From the IMG/VR virus record IMGVR_UViG_3300020471_000848, positions 1 to 36,105 of that record: 36,105 bases of DNA; one strand, given 5' to 3'. Below the pieces are notes generated by a model. The model saw nothing but the letters and a program-made list of their open reading frames with translations. It searched no databases and was not told the DNA's origin. The stretch comes from a virus. The position numbers were made by a program, and so were the translations under genes. Below, piece after piece: positions 2,970 to 18,095 of the stretch (positions are counted from its first letter, which is position 1; each line of letters starts with the position of its first letter).

Positions 2970-3030
2970 GAGGGGGGTAGCTTATTCGTGCATTGACTCT
3001 GACAAGATGGGGTGCGGTATGGGCGAGGGA

Positions 3031-3114
3031 TGCGGTAAGGCGCTTATTGCGTGCGGTAAGGCGCTTATTGCGTGCGGTAAGGCGCTTATTGCGTGCGGTA
3101 AGGCGCTTATTGCG
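3031..3114. repeat. Four tandem 21-bp iterons, candidate replication origin
   Basis: Four perfect head-to-tail copies of a 21-bp unit start at 3031, 3052, 3073 and 3094. The core is GGTAAGGCGCTTATTG, which contains a dyad TAAG-GCG-CTTA. A degenerate copy precedes (GTGCGGTATGGG at about 3012-3023). The copies directly follow one another without spacers. Iterons of this size bind replication initiators in many phages and plasmids. The array lies in a gene-free stretch beside AT-rich sequence, which supports an origin. No initiator protein was identified, so a regulatory role remains possible. Confidence 0.6.
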
Positions 3115-3626
3115 AAAAAAGTTGTGCGGGGGGTGATGATAATACAGAAATTAGCGCGGACACGCACGCACCCCCGCCCCCCCTCTGACCCGTGTCAGTA
3201 GCTCGCGCCTGGCCGCGTCTCGATATGGCGCCGGATTGAGGCCATTTTCGGGCAGCACAAGATTCCTAGTCTCTTGTATTTCCTCACCGTTGCGAGGATT
3301 GCGGGAATCCGTGGCAGAGCTAGGCGATTGAGTTGCGGGTATCCTTGGCCTAGCGTAAATCAATTCATGTATTTGTATATATGGTGGATTTGCTTGTTTT
3401 GTAGATTTGCTCGGTTCACGCACGAATTCTATTTTTGCCATCCGAAGGCGAAATGAATTTCCTGATAATCCATTATCATTAAGCCTTGCCCGCAACCCTG
3501 GCCACGTTACCCCGCAAAACTTTTTTTCATTTTTTTCTTGCGCCTTGTGTCGCAACTTGTAGTATTGTGATTATCCAACGCGGGAAACCCCGCAAAACTA
3601 AACAAATCAAACCAAGGACAAGACAA
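3115..3626. other. Gene-poor leader between iterons and early operon
   Basis: A 512-bp stretch without a convincing gene. It has a C-rich run (about 3171-3182), T-runs at 3521-3538, a 13-bp direct repeat ACCCCGCAAAACT at 3509-3521 and 3587-3599, and a small hairpin GCGGG-AAAC-CCCGC just before the first gene. A minus-strand ORF (3151-3555, TTG start; or from ATG 3438) is open, but lacks a good ribosome site and any recognised motif. The region most likely holds origin and promoter signals. Confidence 0.4.
3538..3565 (+). promoter_or_regulatory. Candidate promoter of the rightward early operon
   Basis: TTGCGC (3538-3543), a 16-bp spacer and TAGTAT (3560-3565) make a fair sigma70-like promoter about 62 bp upstream of the first ATG at 3627. 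It lies between the two ACCCCGCAAAACT repeats, which could bind a regulator. Prediction by eye only. Confidence 0.4.
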
Positions 3627-5924: not shown

Positions 5925-6302
5925 ATGAAAAAGATAACCATTGACTTAACTGAAAAACAACATTGCTTGATTTCGAGAATTGCGAAAGAAGACAAACGCA
6001 AGTTGCAAGATCTTGTTTACGTGACGATCTCGGCAGGGCTTCGTTCCGTTTTTTGCGAACGTGCGATTCACGTCGAGAAGAAGCCGGACGAATATAGCGA
6101 AGAGGATCGAAAGCAGATTGCGAAGAACGAGAAACTCGAAAAGATCAAGGGTTGGGAAAACAAGACTTGGGAGGTGAAACGCGAAATGGGTTACAAGCAC
6201 GTTCACGACTGGCTCTCGAATTGCAACCGGGATGAAAAGGATTTCGTGGAAGAACTATCGGAATCGATTGAGTCCAACATTTACAAAGGAGAAACGGCAT
6301 GA
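5925..6302 (+). CDS. Ribbon-helix-helix-like protein, 125 aa
   Basis: ATG 5925 is preceded by AAGGAGAAAG. Residues 1-45 resemble an Arc/MetJ-type ribbon-helix-helix: a short strand KKITIDLTEKQ, helix LISRIAKEDKRKL, turn, then helix LVYVTISAGLRSVF. The remaining 80 residues are charged and helical. It is probably a DNA-binding regulator acting as a dimer (inference). It heads the second early unit after the terminator. The end KGETA arises because the next gene's ribosome site is read through in frame. Confidence 0.6.
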   Translation: MKKITIDLTEKQHCLISRIAKEDKRKLQDLVYVTISAGLRSVFCERAIHVEKKPDEYSEEDRKQIAKNEKLEKIKGWENKTWEVKREMGYKHVHDWLSNCNRDEKDFVEELSESIESNIYKGETA

Positions 6303-6607
6303 GCGAAATGATCGAGACAACCGATATTGAGGTTTTGGAAATCGCGTATCATCGCAATGGCGTTGGGGGTTACCCGTTCCACGTCGTTTCCTTCCGTAAC
6401 AAGGAGATGGATCGCGTATTTCTTGCAACCGTGTTTTTCGAGCATGATGACGAGGGAAACGAAACGCTTGGGTTCAATCCTCGCATTGCAATCATTGACC
6501 CGGAACTTGCGGCAAAAGGAATAATTGCGTTTGGGGAAAACTCATGGCGCGGGGATACCTACGCCTACGCACTTGCGGAAGCAATCAAGAAAGGAGAAAC
6601 GGCATGA
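6299..6607 (+). CDS. Hypothetical 102-aa protein
   Basis: ATG overlaps the upstream TGA within the cassette AAGGAGAAACGGCATGA. The protein is probably alpha/beta, with strands such as IEVLEIAYHRNG, PFHVVSFRN and RVFLATVFFEH, and a C-terminal helix (DTYAYALAEAIKK). It ends in GETA through the next cassette. No family recognised. Confidence 0.65.
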   Translation: MSEMIETTDIEVLEIAYHRNGVGGYPFHVVSFRNKEMDRVFLATVFFEHDDEGNETLGFNPRIAIIDPELAAKGIIAFGENSWRGDTYAYALAEAIKKGETA

Positions 6608-6930
6608 GTGAGTTAATATGGTTAACGGTCCCGCATCAGACTCACCCGGTTGCGGTTTGGTATGAGGACAAGGAGAAATTGGTCGAAGGATTGCATGAGC
6701 ATCATGTTGAGGAGGACTTGAAGTATTCCGAAGAGCTTGAAGACTTTGACAAGTTAATGGAGGCTGCGTCCATGAGTTACCATGCGACTGAGTTGATCAA
6801 CAAAGAGAAATACCTGGCAATGGTTGCGAATGAATTCGCGGATCTTGGGCATCACCAAAAGTTCAAAGCGATTAAGCAGATCGAAGAATGCGCGACAGTT
6901 TTGGGTTGGGCGGAAGGAGAAACGGCATGA
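6604..6930 (+). CDS. Hypothetical 108-aa acidic protein
   Basis: The start at 6604 lies in the repeated ribosome-site cassette; the longer open frame from 6544 is not needed. The N-terminus is MSELIWLTVPHQTHPVAVWY, followed by acidic helical segments with several His (GLHEHHVEEDLKYSEELEDF). It ends WAEGETA through the next cassette. Unknown function. Confidence 0.65.
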   Translation: MSELIWLTVPHQTHPVAVWYEDKEKLVEGLHEHHVEEDLKYSEELEDFDKLMEAASMSYHATELINKEKYLAMVANEFADLGHHQKFKAIKQIEECATVLGWAEGETA

Positions 6931-7133
6931 AAATAGACAAGCGATCAGAGGAAAGCGTGTATATCACGATCAACGGTTGGGTTTACTACATTGACGATTC
7001 AACTGGCGAGCAAATCATGGACAAGTGGCGCGAAGGATCTTCCTTTGACGAAGAAACGCGCCAAGCTCGCGAGGAAATGGAATCGGGCAATGAGAAATCC
7101 GAGTATCCGTTTGGGGAAGGAGAAACGGCATGA
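6927..7133 (+). CDS. Hypothetical 68-aa protein
   Basis: Starts within the third copy of the ribosome-site cassette. The N-terminal part looks like a beta hairpin (SVYITINGWVYYIDDST), followed by a charged helix (EETRQAREEMESGNEKS). It ends GEGETA. Small, acidic, without recognised family. Confidence 0.6.
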   Translation: MKIDKRSEESVYITINGWVYYIDDSTGEQIMDKWREGSSFDEETRQAREEMESGNEKSEYPFGEGETA

Positions 7134-7312
7134 GCGAGGAATCGAAGGTTTATGTCTATGAATGCTTTGGTGAGACAATCGCCTATGCCGAATCATTGGG
7201 CTTCGTTGATGACGTGAAAGACTCCGAATGGTGCGCGGACGCAGCTGATGGGCTTGAAGAAGAGGCTATTGAATTTATCGAATCCAAAGGCATCAAGGTA
7301 ATTATGGCCTAA
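7130..7312 (+). CDS. Hypothetical acidic 60-aa protein, last gene of the rightward operon
   Basis: Starts in the fourth cassette. Sequence MSEESKVYVYECFGETIAYA and then an acidic helix (AADGLEEEAIEFIESKGIKV); pI is clearly low. Its stop codon (TAA) is followed at once by an orphan ribosome-site cassette without an ATG. Unknown function. Confidence 0.6.
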   Translation: MSEESKVYVYECFGETIAYAESLGFVDDVKDSEWCADAADGLEEEAIEFIESKGIKVIMA

Positions 7313-13101: not shown

Positions 13102-14247
13102 TTAGAAGCTTCGGTTTACACTCGGAAGACCTGAGTATATCTTCGAGGTCATCTCGATTGAGGAGTGTCCCAAAGCTTTCGAGGATATGAATATGTCGTT
13201 GGACTTCATGATCCGATGGCCGCAATACTTCCGAAGTCGGTGAACGGGTCGCTTGTCGGTAATCCCGCAACTGTGCTTGAGGAACTGCGGGAAGTCGCGC
13301 ACGATCCTGTCCTCCTGCACCGGAACGATTAATGCATCGTCCGATGTTTTATTACTGATGATTTCGTCCCACCAAGCCGGATCGCATGGTCTGTCCTGGT
13401 ATTCACGTCCATCGATTTCCGAATCGTTGACGCCCTTGGGATTCCAAATGCGTATGAGCTTGTTCCCGTCCGATTCCCATAGGTCACCAAACTTGGCCCG
13501 TTGAATTTCTGAGGAACGCAATCCGAGTCCGTACGCCAATGCGTACGCCATGTACAATTCGGGGTCCAAGACCTTGAGTTGATTACACTTACTCTCGATC
13601 AACTGCCTTTCCTTTTCGTCCGGCATGAAAGGTTTCACCTTGATCGAATCAAGTTGCAAAGAAGTCCAGTTGGCAAAGAACGAGGTATCGATCCCACAAC
13701 GCTCTTTGTAGTACCGCACCCATCCCTTGCTAAAGATTGAGCGTGCCATGCGAACATCCGTAGGCTTACGCTCGAATTGAGCATAGTGTTCGCAAATGGG
13801 TTGGCCTCCGACTTTCTTCGCAAAGTACCGAATGTCATGCTCACATGGGTCGATATTGTACTTAGCCAATATCCGTTTCATGCAGACCACGTTCTTGCGC
13901 TTGGTATCGTCCGAAGCTTGTTTGCCCGTGGCAAGTCGGTTGAACTCATAAATCTTGTGCAACTCACAAATTTTCGGAGTTTTTCGTTCGATCCGTTGGT
14001 TAATAATTTCCAAAAGAGCGGGTTGTGCCAGTTCGCGAGCCTCGTCGGGACAAGAGGTGTCGAGAGATTTGCGAATCCGCTCGTCATTAATGTTCAATTC
14101 CATGACTTGAGTGGTTCGGGTTTTCCCGTGCCGAGGTTTGATTTCGACGCGGATGGGGTTAGTGTTGTTTAGATCAACTTTACCACTCTTTTCGTCAGGA
14201 AGAATTATAATTTTGCTCTTTTTTTGTAATCGATTTTTTTTGCTCAT
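13102..14247 (-). CDS. int: Tyrosine-family site-specific integrase
   Basis: 381 aa. The catalytic domain carries all expected residues: R244 (GLGLRSSEIQ), K271 (IWNPKG), H336 and R339 (VHRLRKYCGHR), H361 (ALGHSS) and nucleophile Y371 (TSKIYSG). Residues about 90-200 form the core-binding SAM-like domain, and the basic N-terminus may bind arm sites. It would insert the phage into the host chromosome. It begins only 41 bp from a tRNA-Lys fragment that is the probable attachment site, confirming a temperate lifestyle in principle. Confidence 0.95.
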   Translation of the reverse strand: MSKKNRLQKKSKIIILPDEKSGKVDLNNTNPIRVEIKPRHGKTRTTQVMELNINDERIRKSLDTSCPDEARELAQPALLEIINQRIERKTPKICELHKIYEFNRLATGKQASDDTKRKNVVCMKRILAKYNIDPCEHDIRYFAKKVGGQPICEHYAQFERKPTDVRMARSIFSKGWVRYYKERCGIDTSFFANWTSLQLDSIKVKPFMPDEKERQLIESKCNQLKVLDPELYMAYALAYGLGLRSSEIQRAKFGDLWESDGNKLIRIWNPKGVNDSEIDGREYQDRPCDPAWWDEIISNKTSDDALIVPVQEDRIVRDFPQFLKHSCGITDKRPVHRLRKYCGHRIMKSNDIFISSKALGHSSIEMTSKIYSGLPSVNRSF

Positions 14248-14287
14248 GTTTGTGGGAATTAGCGCATGACTTCTACAAGGACTCTCG

Positions 14288-14332
14288 CAAAAGATTAAGA
14301 GTCTCCTGCTCTACCAACTGAGCTACGCCGGC
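14288..14332 (-). other. Candidate attP: 5' part of a tRNA-Lys(CUU) gene
   Basis: Read on the minus strand from 14332: acceptor GCCGGCG, TA, D-stem GCTC with AGTTGGTA loop and GAGC, then anticodon stem GGAGA, loop CTCTTAA (anticodon CTT at 14299-14297) and TCTTT. After that no T-arm or matching 3' acceptor (CGCCGGC) follows, so it is not a working tRNA. Identity of phage DNA to part of a host tRNA beside an integrase gene is the classic attP pattern. Unusually, the 5' rather than the 3' portion is kept. Confidence 0.75.
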
Positions 14333-14474
14333 TCAAGTAACAAGTGTCGTTGAGATTTATAGACTTTGCCTCAAGGAATTCAAGGTTAATCTGTTCGACG
14401 TTGCTCATTCGTGATGCAACAAGATCGGACAATTTAGAAATCGTCAACATCTTTTTTAAAAAAAGTTTTGGTCA
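14333..14474. other. Spacer between attP candidate and late terminator
   Basis: About 140 bp without a supported gene, AT-rich near 14440-14470. A 51-codon minus-strand ORF (ATG 14450, ending inside the tRNA fragment) exists but has no ribosome site. The stretch probably carries integrase arm sites and the integrase promoter; none could be pinned down by eye. Confidence 0.3.
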
Positions 14475-14504
14475 CAAAAAAAGCGAGGGTTTTACCCCTC
14501 GCTT
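14475..14504 (-). terminator. Terminator of the late structural operon
   Basis: On the minus strand, a 9-bp stem AAGCGAGGG/CCCTCGCTT with a 6-nt loop is followed by a run of T (complement of the A-run at 14476-14482). A second small hairpin (GCGGATG-TCCC-CATCCGC, 14507-14524) lies just upstream. It follows the stop of the last virion gene at 14568 by about 65 bp and insulates the attachment site and integrase from late transcription. Confidence 0.85.
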
Positions 14505-14567: not shown

Positions 14568-17500
14568 TTAATCGCGAACGCTGGTCTTGTCAAGTCCTCC
14601 GAGATAGCGCCAATAGATTAGATCGAGAGGCGTGCCTTGTAGCATTGCGCCCTTGTACTCACCATCCCCAACGATGGCAGATATGTCATCGGAAGCACGG
14701 TCAAAAACAGCGGTGGGCGGAGCAACAAAATCAATGAATGCTTTACCTAGTCCTTTCCTTCTCACGTTGTAAACGGTGTACCTGTTTACCCCAATCAGCT
14801 TCCATAAATTATCTTCAATCAACTCATCTCTCTTGATGGGTCTTCCATAGATAACGTCCTTGATAACGTCGGTCCCGGCATTGGCGGCGGCAAACAAGGC
14901 CGCAATTTGCACTAGGTCTTTTGTTCCCTTGGCGGCCAGCCTTACTCCCTTTTCTTGCTTGGATTGATTACCCTCTGCGCGACCTGCCAGATACAACTCT
15001 CCGCCTTCCTTGATGTTGCTTAATCCTGCGGTTCGGAACGTATCGATTTGTTTAATGGTAAAAGTCTTGAGCATATACATGATCCGCATATTTGGATTCC
15101 TCATGTACGCTGCGGGTACTTCGCTTGCGGTAGCAGGAGCAACGTCGAGAAGTTTATGAAAGACAAGCTCAGTAACTTCTGCGGGTGGTTCCTTGTTGCC
15201 TGGTGCGTTTGATCTTACTGCTTTGATAACCTCGTCAGTCCGGTCACCAAAGTACGGGAGCAATTCTTCCCGAAGCTTTTGAGAACCACCCTCGCTTTGC
15301 GCTAGCTTGTGGTACTTCCTCCAAGCGGCATTCATGTATGCGTTCTTTGCGAAAAGATCGAGTTGCTTAAGTCCGGTCTTGCGGAATAAATTATCGAGCA
15401 ACCCACTAAGTTTGTCACTATTGCCTATGTCCTCGAATTCTCGTTGGCTCAACCCTGTGAGTTCCGCAAAGTTAAACATATCCTTGCGATTGAACAAAGT
15501 TTTGAAGTGGTTGCCAAAACCATTAAAGTGGATACTGAAGACCTGGTCGGCAAGCTGAGTAATCGCAGACCCGAAGTTGGTCATGACTTGCAAATATCCC
15601 AAGTTTTTCAATGCTCTAGTGGTGTAGCTTTCAGTACCACCGGAGAACCTGGACTGTATTATTTGCCTGAGTTTCCCGACGTCTTCTGCTCCAAACTTCG
15701 TACCCTTGAGCAAATCCTCCGCCAAAGCATTAGCAAGCGATTCATCCACACCCGCACGCATTCCGACATCTGCCCCCATGACGTCCTTGAATCCTTCTCC
15801 TTGGACTGCTTGGCCTTTTGCTGGTTTGACCATACCAAGGAATTTCTTTCTTTCGACTGCTTCGACAGTTCCTCGGATGTAAGATTCAAGAGCATCTTCG
15901 GGTGACTCGTAAGCTTTTCGGATCTTATTGAGAGTCTTCTTGTCGAATATACTTCTTGGTTTAAAGTTGGAAGGAATACTACCCGTGACCGGGTATCCAC
16001 GAATCACCCTACTGGTAATCTCCGCCAACTCTTCGGGTGTAAGATCTTCTTTGTTGATTTTATTCTTCAGAGCAAACTCATCAATCGCTTTGTCGATTTC
16101 AGTCGTGGCCGCTCTTAACTCAGGATCATTGTCCATGAACTCCCTGAGTTCCTTGTAGTTTTTTACTTTACGCGGAAAGTAGTCTTCTATGTATCCCACG
16201 TCAAAACCACCCTCTTCGCGTGCATAAGCTCGGATTTCCTCCAAGGTGTCCCGCATCTGCTTCAACTCAGTCTTGATGTCCTGACTTACCTTTTCAGGCA
16301 ACCTCAGATCGTCGATTAAAATGACCATCCCTTTAAAGTCACCTTCAAGCAACAAGTCATCGAACTTTTCTCTTGTTTGAGGCTTACCCTTTAAAGCATT
16401 GCTCATGGATTTTATAAAGGGCATTGCGCCTTTCATAAGAGCAGTAGTTTTCTTGCCTGTACGCAAATCAAGATTCCGGAATTTCGCAGTAAACGTGGTC
16501 CCTAATTTCTTATCCAAGTTTTTGATTTGTCTTGAGATTGGTGTGACCAAGTCAGACGTAACGCTTTTCACGTCTTCAAACACTCTGCTCCACCATCTCT
16601 TTGGCGCAAAATCCCGGTTCTCAGAATTCTGTATCCTTTGGGATTTCATGGCGGTAGGCTCAACGGATTGCGGATCGCGCTTGGCTTGACTGTTGAGTTT
16701 CTTGAATTTCTTGGTCTTAAGGAATTTATTGAGAGACTTTCCTTTGAATCCAATGGCCGCTAATAAAAACGCCAATGGACCCGCTACTCCAGCTTGAGCC
16801 ATTGCCTCACTATCTTCGTCGTTTGCGAATGCTCCGTAAGTAGCTGCACCCCCTGCCCCTGCTCCCATTGCGATATTGAAATACTTCTCGTAACCGGGGC
16901 CGAGCTTGTCCTCTGCCATCTGTTCCGACTTGGTCATGGGATCGGCTTGCTGCATTGGTTGATCACCTGACTGGATGTCTTGCCTATTGGGTGGCATTTG
17001 TCTGCCCTGCATCTCTGCTTCAAGATCATCAAGAACCATGTTGTTGCGCCTCAGTATGCGTTGTTTTTCGACATTGAGTCTTTTGCGCTGATTACTCGCT
17101 CCCTTGTTCTTGCCGTGCTTATGGTCGAGCATGGCGATACTCTGTTGGATCTCACGCAGTCTTGCATTGTCTCCGACTTGTTGAGTGTTTAGATCGACCT
17201 CCCGCATGAGCGGGACAAAGATCTCTTCGGGTTGCCCCAATAACGTATCTAGGGATTGTTGTTGGTCAGAAAGTTCTCCTGTCGCGCCTTGTGGCATTCG
17301 TGCAATTTTTGAAAACTCACCTTCAAGTTCATCAAGCAGTTTGTTTTCCATCGCTTGCACGGACTCCTCTGCCGCTTCCTTGGGCGATTTCTTGGCCAAG
17401 GATTCAATGTCCTTAACATCAAGTAATGGAGTGCCTATCGCCAAGTTTTGAATGCCTCCTGCTTCCTTAATGTTTTCTTCGTGTTTACTAAGAAGCTCCG

Positions 17501-18095
17501 GCCTGGTCATGTCTTTCTCCGCACCTTCGACCAAATTGTTACTCAACCACTTTGCCTCCAATGCACCAAGCCCACCACCAAATGCACCACCAAACAAAAC
17601 GGTGGTTGCGATTTCTTCTCTTGTCGGAGCGCGTCCTTCGTCTCCGTATGTTCGTGCAAGTAATTCTCCGGTTGCCAAACCCGCACCTTCCGCTGAACGA
17701 ATTCCCGTCCTGGTAACTCCGCCTATATTCTTGAGTGCTTTTGCACCTGTGACCGAAGGGATCGCACCTAGTGCGGTTGCCGCTCCGAGTTCCGCCATTC
17801 CGAGATCCTCTTGGAACCCACGGTTGATTCGGTAATTTTGCGACATATAGTTTCCAAGCGCAGACCCACCTGCACCACCTATGATCGTACCCTTGGGTCC
17901 ACCTAATGAACCAACAAGTCCACCCACTATTGCGGGTACGACCTCAAGGCCGATAATCATGCCCGTGTCTATAAGGTCGGGGCCGGAAGGATTGTAGAGT
18001 TCTTCTATGTCGGGACCAAAAGTGTAAGTTTTGTCGAGATCCAGTTTGGCGACTTCACCGGAAAAAAAAGTGTACTGTCGATTAGGGTCTAACAT
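14568..18095 (-). CDS. Very large internal virion (ejection) protein, 1175 aa
   Basis: The largest gene and the last of the late operon, a position where short-tailed phages encode ejection proteins. Gly/Ala-rich hydrophobic segments at about 46-90 (MIIGLEVVPAIVGGLVGSLG), 100-115 and 420-450 (AGVAGPLAFLLAAIGF) could insert into the host membrane. The middle is charged and coiled-coil-like (about 590-700). The C-terminal 200 residues (YMLKTFTIKQIDTFR, VAPPTAVFD) recall the polyvalent-protein associated LPD38 type, tentatively. No lysozyme or transglycosylase motif was seen. Confidence 0.7.
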   Translation of the reverse strand: MLDPNRQYTFFSGEVAKLDLDKTYTFGPDIEELYNPSGPDLIDTGMIIGLEVVPAIVGGLVGSLGGPKGTIIGGAGGSALGNYMSQNYRINRGFQEDLGMAELGAATALGAIPSVTGAKALKNIGGVTRTGIRSAEGAGLATGELLARTYGDEGRAPTREEIATTVLFGGAFGGGLGALEAKWLSNNLVEGAEKDMTRPELLSKHEENIKEAGGIQNLAIGTPLLDVKDIESLAKKSPKEAAEESVQAMENKLLDELEGEFSKIARMPQGATGELSDQQQSLDTLLGQPEEIFVPLMREVDLNTQQVGDNARLREIQQSIAMLDHKHGKNKGASNQRKRLNVEKQRILRRNNMVLDDLEAEMQGRQMPPNRQDIQSGDQPMQQADPMTKSEQMAEDKLGPGYEKYFNIAMGAGAGGAATYGAFANDEDSEAMAQAGVAGPLAFLLAAIGFKGKSLNKFLKTKKFKKLNSQAKRDPQSVEPTAMKSQRIQNSENRDFAPKRWWSRVFEDVKSVTSDLVTPISRQIKNLDKKLGTTFTAKFRNLDLRTGKKTTALMKGAMPFIKSMSNALKGKPQTREKFDDLLLEGDFKGMVILIDDLRLPEKVSQDIKTELKQMRDTLEEIRAYAREEGGFDVGYIEDYFPRKVKNYKELREFMDNDPELRAATTEIDKAIDEFALKNKINKEDLTPEELAEITSRVIRGYPVTGSIPSNFKPRSIFDKKTLNKIRKAYESPEDALESYIRGTVEAVERKKFLGMVKPAKGQAVQGEGFKDVMGADVGMRAGVDESLANALAEDLLKGTKFGAEDVGKLRQIIQSRFSGGTESYTTRALKNLGYLQVMTNFGSAITQLADQVFSIHFNGFGNHFKTLFNRKDMFNFAELTGLSQREFEDIGNSDKLSGLLDNLFRKTGLKQLDLFAKNAYMNAAWRKYHKLAQSEGGSQKLREELLPYFGDRTDEVIKAVRSNAPGNKEPPAEVTELVFHKLLDVAPATASEVPAAYMRNPNMRIMYMLKTFTIKQIDTFRTAGLSNIKEGGELYLAGRAEGNQSKQEKGVRLAAKGTKDLVQIAALFAAANAGTDVIKDVIYGRPIKRDELIEDNLWKLIGVNRYTVYNVRRKGLGKAFIDFVAPPTAVFDRASDDISAIVGDGEYKGAMLQGTPLDLIYWRYLGGLDKTSVRD

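Follow-up and report, generated by a model that had tools for sequence, protein, structure and literature searches.

The locus considered here raises the question of why a phage genome would carry half of a host tRNA gene just ahead of its integrase gene, and from which promoter that tRNA would be read once the phage had integrated. The stretch of DNA analysed (the window) corresponds to positions 1-36,105 of the IMG/VR record IMGVR_UViG_3300020471_000848 (36,105 bases) and has the gene content of a phage, with an SU10-type capsid gene, a DnaB-type helicase, a terminase-like protein, a Holliday junction resolvase, Arc-like and other regulators, and a tyrosine integrase. The features of the locus, in the order in which they are read, are as follows.

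14568..18095, minus strand: large virion-protein-like gene, directly upstream of the tRNA half
14481..14504, minus strand: intrinsic terminator, AAGCGAGGG-loop-CCCTCGCTT followed by a T run, between the late genes and the promoter-like box
14421..14447, minus strand: promoter-like TTGACG (14447-14442), 15 nt, GATCTT (14426-14421), conserved in place
14333..14420, minus strand: leader, from the promoter-like boxes to tRNA nt 1, without coding signal
14293..14332, minus strand: 5' half of tRNA-Lys(CTT), tRNA nt 1-40, conserved part of the putative attP
14295..14301, minus strand: anticodon loop CTCTTAA, common to 5'-type and 3'-type relatives, where identity ends sharply
14248..14292, minus strand: spacer between the tRNA half and the integrase gene, almost unconserved
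13102..14247, minus strand: tyrosine integrase of 381 aa, with its ATG 45 bp past the tRNA half on the same strand

Elsewhere in the window, a 114-aa protein encoded on the minus strand at 9345-9689 matches sigma-70 region 4 (PF04545, E 4e-9) and is possibly a phage transcription regulator. Four consecutive small genes on the plus strand (6290-7135) each end in GETA and each overlap the start of the next, as if one junction of ribosome-binding site and start had been copied with each gene. A short tandem repeat of ca. 4 copies at about 3020-3120 (ISALPHA / CGKALIA in translation) could represent iterons.

Read from 14332 to 14293, the minus strand gives GCCGGCGTAGCTCAGTTGGTAGAGCAGGAGACTCTTAATC, which comprises the acceptor 5' strand, the D-arm, the 5' anticodon stem, the whole anticodon loop and two further bases. 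An earlier note on this DNA had proposed that 14288-14332 contains a 5' fragment of tRNA-Lys. The fragment is real, as it corresponds to tRNA nt 1-40 and recurs in 12 other viral contigs; as for its extent, 14293-14332 is conserved, whereas the remaining bases (TTTTG, on to 14288) match the reconstructed host tRNA and vary among relatives. The half scores 27.1 bits against the Rfam tRNA model, just below the cut-off of 29, and no complete tRNA was detected in the window by ARAGORN. A tRNA end bounded at the anticodon loop and held in an attP beside the integrase gene is the mark of anticodon-loop tRNA integrating elements, and such an arrangement is found here.

Viral contigs were scanned with a DNA pattern, a 36-mer taken from the tRNA half, that is blind to protein content. 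The exact 36-mer occurs in five other contigs, all five with a homologous integrase (49-64% identical) directly downstream. A 40-mer with A at tRNA position 28 added seven further contigs, whose integrases are 79-82% identical to that of the window and which had all already been recovered through integrase similarity. Altogether, a homologous integrase (49-82% identical) lies just downstream in 12/12 contigs pulled out by the 5' half, a recurrence that excludes a chance match. Within the close clade of the window, only one of the 40 columns of the tRNA half is variable, as compared with 27/60 just upstream and 48/50 just downstream; the sole variable base, tRNA nt 28, is G or A and pairing is kept either way. 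In each of the nine loci carrying this half (5'-types) that were compared, identity begins at tRNA nt 1 and ends two bases beyond the loop.

A broader tRNA-Lys(CTT) pattern returned mostly ordinary full tRNA genes from viral contigs. L125 (4708-4739) and L128 (3591-3622) also have an isolated 5' half, belonging to another tRNA-Lys(CTT), with no family integrase in the stretch examined; these are perhaps other 5'-type elements.

The gene located downstream of the half encodes a phage tyrosine integrase, with a PF00589 domain (E 1.4e-7, over the cut-off), a match to the phrog_1 integrase and the R..HxxR..H..Y residues (R244, H336, R339, H361 and Y371) invariant in an alignment of 13 sequences. 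It has no match when compared with named phages, and no convincing set of arm-type integrase sites was found among the repeats around attP.

A search by integrase alignment yielded 58 viral loci. In many of them (3'-types), this position ahead of the integrase is occupied by the 3' half of tRNA-Lys(CTT), running from CTCTTAA to CCA, and identity among the 3'-types spans the loop to CCA. In one of them, L010, the acceptor strand CGCCGGT pairs 7/7 with GCCGGCG of the window. A blind scan with the L010 3' half recovered the L010 contig and three more (L212, L213 and L215), which have the same 3' half and an adjoining homologous integrase (46-50% identical). Since L010-like 3' halves match, pair 7/7 and lie beside homologous integrases, it appears that one and the same host tRNA gene serves both 5'-types and 3'-types. 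A tRNA ending in GCCCGGT, with 5/7 acceptor pairs to the half of the window, is used by other 3'-types, indicating that hosts differ within the integrase family. The loop common to both types (CTCTTAA, 14295-14301) is predicted to be the 7-bp overlap region in which crossover takes place.

Joining the two halves at the loop rebuilds a full tRNA, with the 3' half taken from a relative (L010) standing in for that of the host: ARAGORN calls a tRNA-Lys(ctt) with 7/7 acceptor pairs and with anticodon and acceptor stems closed, and calls none in the attP region of the window or of L010 by itself. The window half is also accepted when joined with the 3' half of L041 or of L048, so that the specific part of this result is the 7/7 acceptor pairing and not the call. 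The joined pattern has no occurrence in the viral contigs. As a separate observation, L075, a far relative with 35% identity, carries a tRNA-Leu(TAA) 5' half before its integrase, about 400 bp upstream of 3001, and 5' polarity may thus occur at another tRNA.

The surroundings of the half are also shared. The order intrinsic terminator, TTGAC box, tRNA half and integrase is found in 10/10 5'-types, with the box 67-125 nt before the tRNA. In the 3'-types, a terminator-like hairpin is present in 23/24, the remaining one being cut short, and TTGAC lies upstream of the core in 22/24 and is absent from the interval that separates the 3' half from the integrase; in some of them the only TTGAC sits 16-27 nt before the core, where it may belong to the integrase site and not to a promoter. 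On the simplest view, the promoter of the integrase would lie upstream of attP throughout the family. Against the E. coli consensus, the promoter-like boxes of the window are weak (61/100 shuffles score as good), and the second box, GATCTT, is TATCTT in most relatives. A stricter scan of the window returned no promoter, what is conserved being TTGAC and its place only. As the boxes are weak by consensus, transcription from a phage promoter is taken as presumptive. With regard to the 5'-fragment type, in which a promoter precedes the 5' tRNA part, this part is present and the TTGAC box ahead of it is weak and conserved together with the terminator. A short frame that extends from the leader into the half and stops in the loop looked conserved and was discarded, since its variable columns are spread 10/7/10 over the codon positions and the frame therefore carries no coding signal.

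The tool results show the two halves, their common core, the link to the integrase, the fold of the composite tRNA and a conserved layout; from these we infer integration itself, transcription driven by the phage promoter and an exchange of promoters. The locus very probably serves as attP for a temperate phage, with a tyrosine integrase that recombines within the anticodon loop of a tRNA-Lys(CUU) gene of the host; the phage would give the 5' half, and the rebuilt gene would be read from a phage promoter. Crossover in this loop would join the phage terminator, promoter, leader and 5' half to the host 3' half, giving a complete tRNA-Lys gene read from what was formerly the integrase promoter of the phage. 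The host tRNA promoter and the host 5' half would end up before the integrase gene, which would be cut off from its own promoter by integration and come under that of the host tRNA. An intact copy of the host gene would read GCCGGCG...CTCTTAATC joined to TTTTGGTCGTGGGTTCGAATCCCTCCGCCGGTACCA. That the attP supplies the 5' part and that the tRNA would be driven from phage DNA had been anticipated in the earlier note, and sequence comparison supports it through the complementary 3' halves, the boundary at the loop and the occurrence of terminator and TTGAC in 10/10 5'-types.

Other explanations were weighed against this one. Were the window (part of) an integrated prophage, the 5' half would be the host's own, left at the integrase-proximal end, and a 5'-type prophage would likewise show it beside the integrase. 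However, phage genes flank the half on both sides, which places it in the virion genome, and the virion-protein-like gene directly upstream indicates an attP inside the phage genome and not a prophage end. What precedes the half in the window and in its relatives is the same conserved phage terminator, leader and late-gene end, whereas a flank derived from the host would not consist of this phage DNA; this synteny contradicts the prophage explanation and makes it very improbable. The half could also be regarded as a tRNA-like transcribed element, or a decoy, that takes no part in integration, as it sits in the integrase leader and would be transcribed along with the integrase. We give this hardly any credence, because relatives have the complementary 3' half at the same place and a shared crossover in the loop explains this simply.

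It might further be argued that the short core alone matters and that the rest of the half is a relic, the lysogen losing or replacing the tRNA by tRNA-dependent lysogeny or through a redundant host gene. Phages with cores of 8-10 bp do exist (PMC10865867), and four relatives (L067, L069, L073 and L078) retain merely a degenerate match. The whole half is nevertheless held at 1/40 variable columns while its flanks diverge. Moreover, no phage tRNA gene able to complement a broken host gene was found in the window, nor one over the cut-off in the records of 19 relatives, and these same records hold no complete tRNA of the same isotype as encoded by phages with tRNA-dependent lysogeny. A relic of this kind is therefore considered unlikely.

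The hope, expressed in the earlier note, that tRNA identity would reveal the host was disappointed, with matches to the tRNA pattern in 0/200 and 0/398 genomes of Pseudomonadota, the sole phylum sampled. Plasmid and phage records searched by blastn for the host tRNA gave best full-length matches of about 79-84%. No integrated prophage with this integrase was found, and the one integrase match in about 85,000 genomes is on a 3.6-kb contig without the tRNA half.

A maximum-likelihood tree of 49 integrases requires at least two changes between 5' and 3' polarity. Constraining all 5'-types to group together is rejected at a borderline level (AU p 0.04), so that one origin followed by a reversal, or two origins, are both possible. 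In L029, which is the same contig as L015, the 5' half is followed by TTTTGGTCGAATCCC, corresponding to the 3' half minus eight bases; this one contig suggests that an ancestor may have carried both halves. It seems to us an evenly balanced proposition that the family has switched repeatedly between the two halves of one host tRNA-Lys, which would have been possible because an integrase promoter upstream of attP, preceded by a terminator, was already in place. Integration of a 5'-type would then swap promoters, that of the phage keeping the host tRNA alive and that of the host controlling the integrase, and L029 would be the relic of a whole-tRNA intermediate.

Nine loci of the tree (L026, L030-L034, L038, L044 and L076) have no tRNA half at the attP place, and none was found elsewhere in their records, several of which are fragments. 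Most of them have also lost the N-terminal part of the integrase and kept the catalytic domain, the open frame beginning near residue 85-90, just after the promoter-like box. Loss of attP requires at least three changes on the tree, and possibly these integrases have taken on a new role or the phages have ceased to integrate. At the attP place in L067, L069, L073 and L078, a clade adjoining the 5'-types in which the target may have changed, only a degenerate tRNA-like stretch, GAGCAGTAGACAATCAATCTTTTGG, was observed.

Each ingredient of this arrangement is already known, since 5' fragments, a rebuilt tRNA read from an integrase promoter and integrase promoter switching have been described in Islander, pTN3-like elements and ICEKp1. 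In Islander, 159 of 3919 islands carry a 5' tDNA fragment and 2083 are anticodon-centred (PMC4383910). The window resembles the 5'-fragment islands and prophages in having a 5' tRNA fragment in attP and a crossover in the anticodon loop; unlike these chromosome-mapped islands, it is known as the virion form only and belongs to an uncultured phage group with 3'-type relatives. The pTN3-like archaeal elements also have the 5' half in attP, and their rebuilt tRNA is said to be expressed from the integrase promoter, an arrangement described as rare among bacteria (PMC8371274), with the tRNA promoter facing the integrase part after integration (PMC8371274, PMC5495485), so that there as here the rebuilt tRNA would be parted from its own promoter. 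In those archaeal elements, however, attP is inside the integrase gene, which is split upon integration at a tRNA-Leu site, whereas in this tailed phage it lies 45 bp before the ATG at a tRNA-Lys site and the gene would stay whole; the frame that crosses attP ends within the loop and is free of coding bias, and the integrase is thus not of the suicidal kind.

In circular ICEKp1, int is read from the other end of the element, and in the integrated form from the promoter of the host tRNA (PMC13023037). A similar state-dependent switch is proposed here, and the layout fits, with no TTGAC box between attP and the integrase in 24 3'-types; the difference is that in ICEKp1 the tRNA keeps its host promoter, which also reads int, whereas here the tRNA would change promoter too. 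Fionnbharth-type mycobacteriophages, which show tRNA-dependent lysogeny, likewise have a tyrosine integrase acting at a tRNA-Lys gene, and related integrases with and without tRNA rebuilding, yet in those phages the tRNA gene is complete and the core measures 10 bp (PMC10865867), as opposed to a 40-nt half and no tRNA gene in the window.

In a limited literature search, both polarities within one phage integrase family were not found described. What appears less usual is one such family with both polarities at one tRNA and, on its tree, at least two switches between them. In bacteria, only a small minority of elements restore a host tRNA by means of a promoter of their own, and this rare polarity occurs here next to the common one, at apparently the same tRNA gene and with a shared layout of terminator, promoter, attP and integrase. 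With both polarities in one family, the change of polarity and the cost to the host of depending on a phage promoter for its tRNA become testable.
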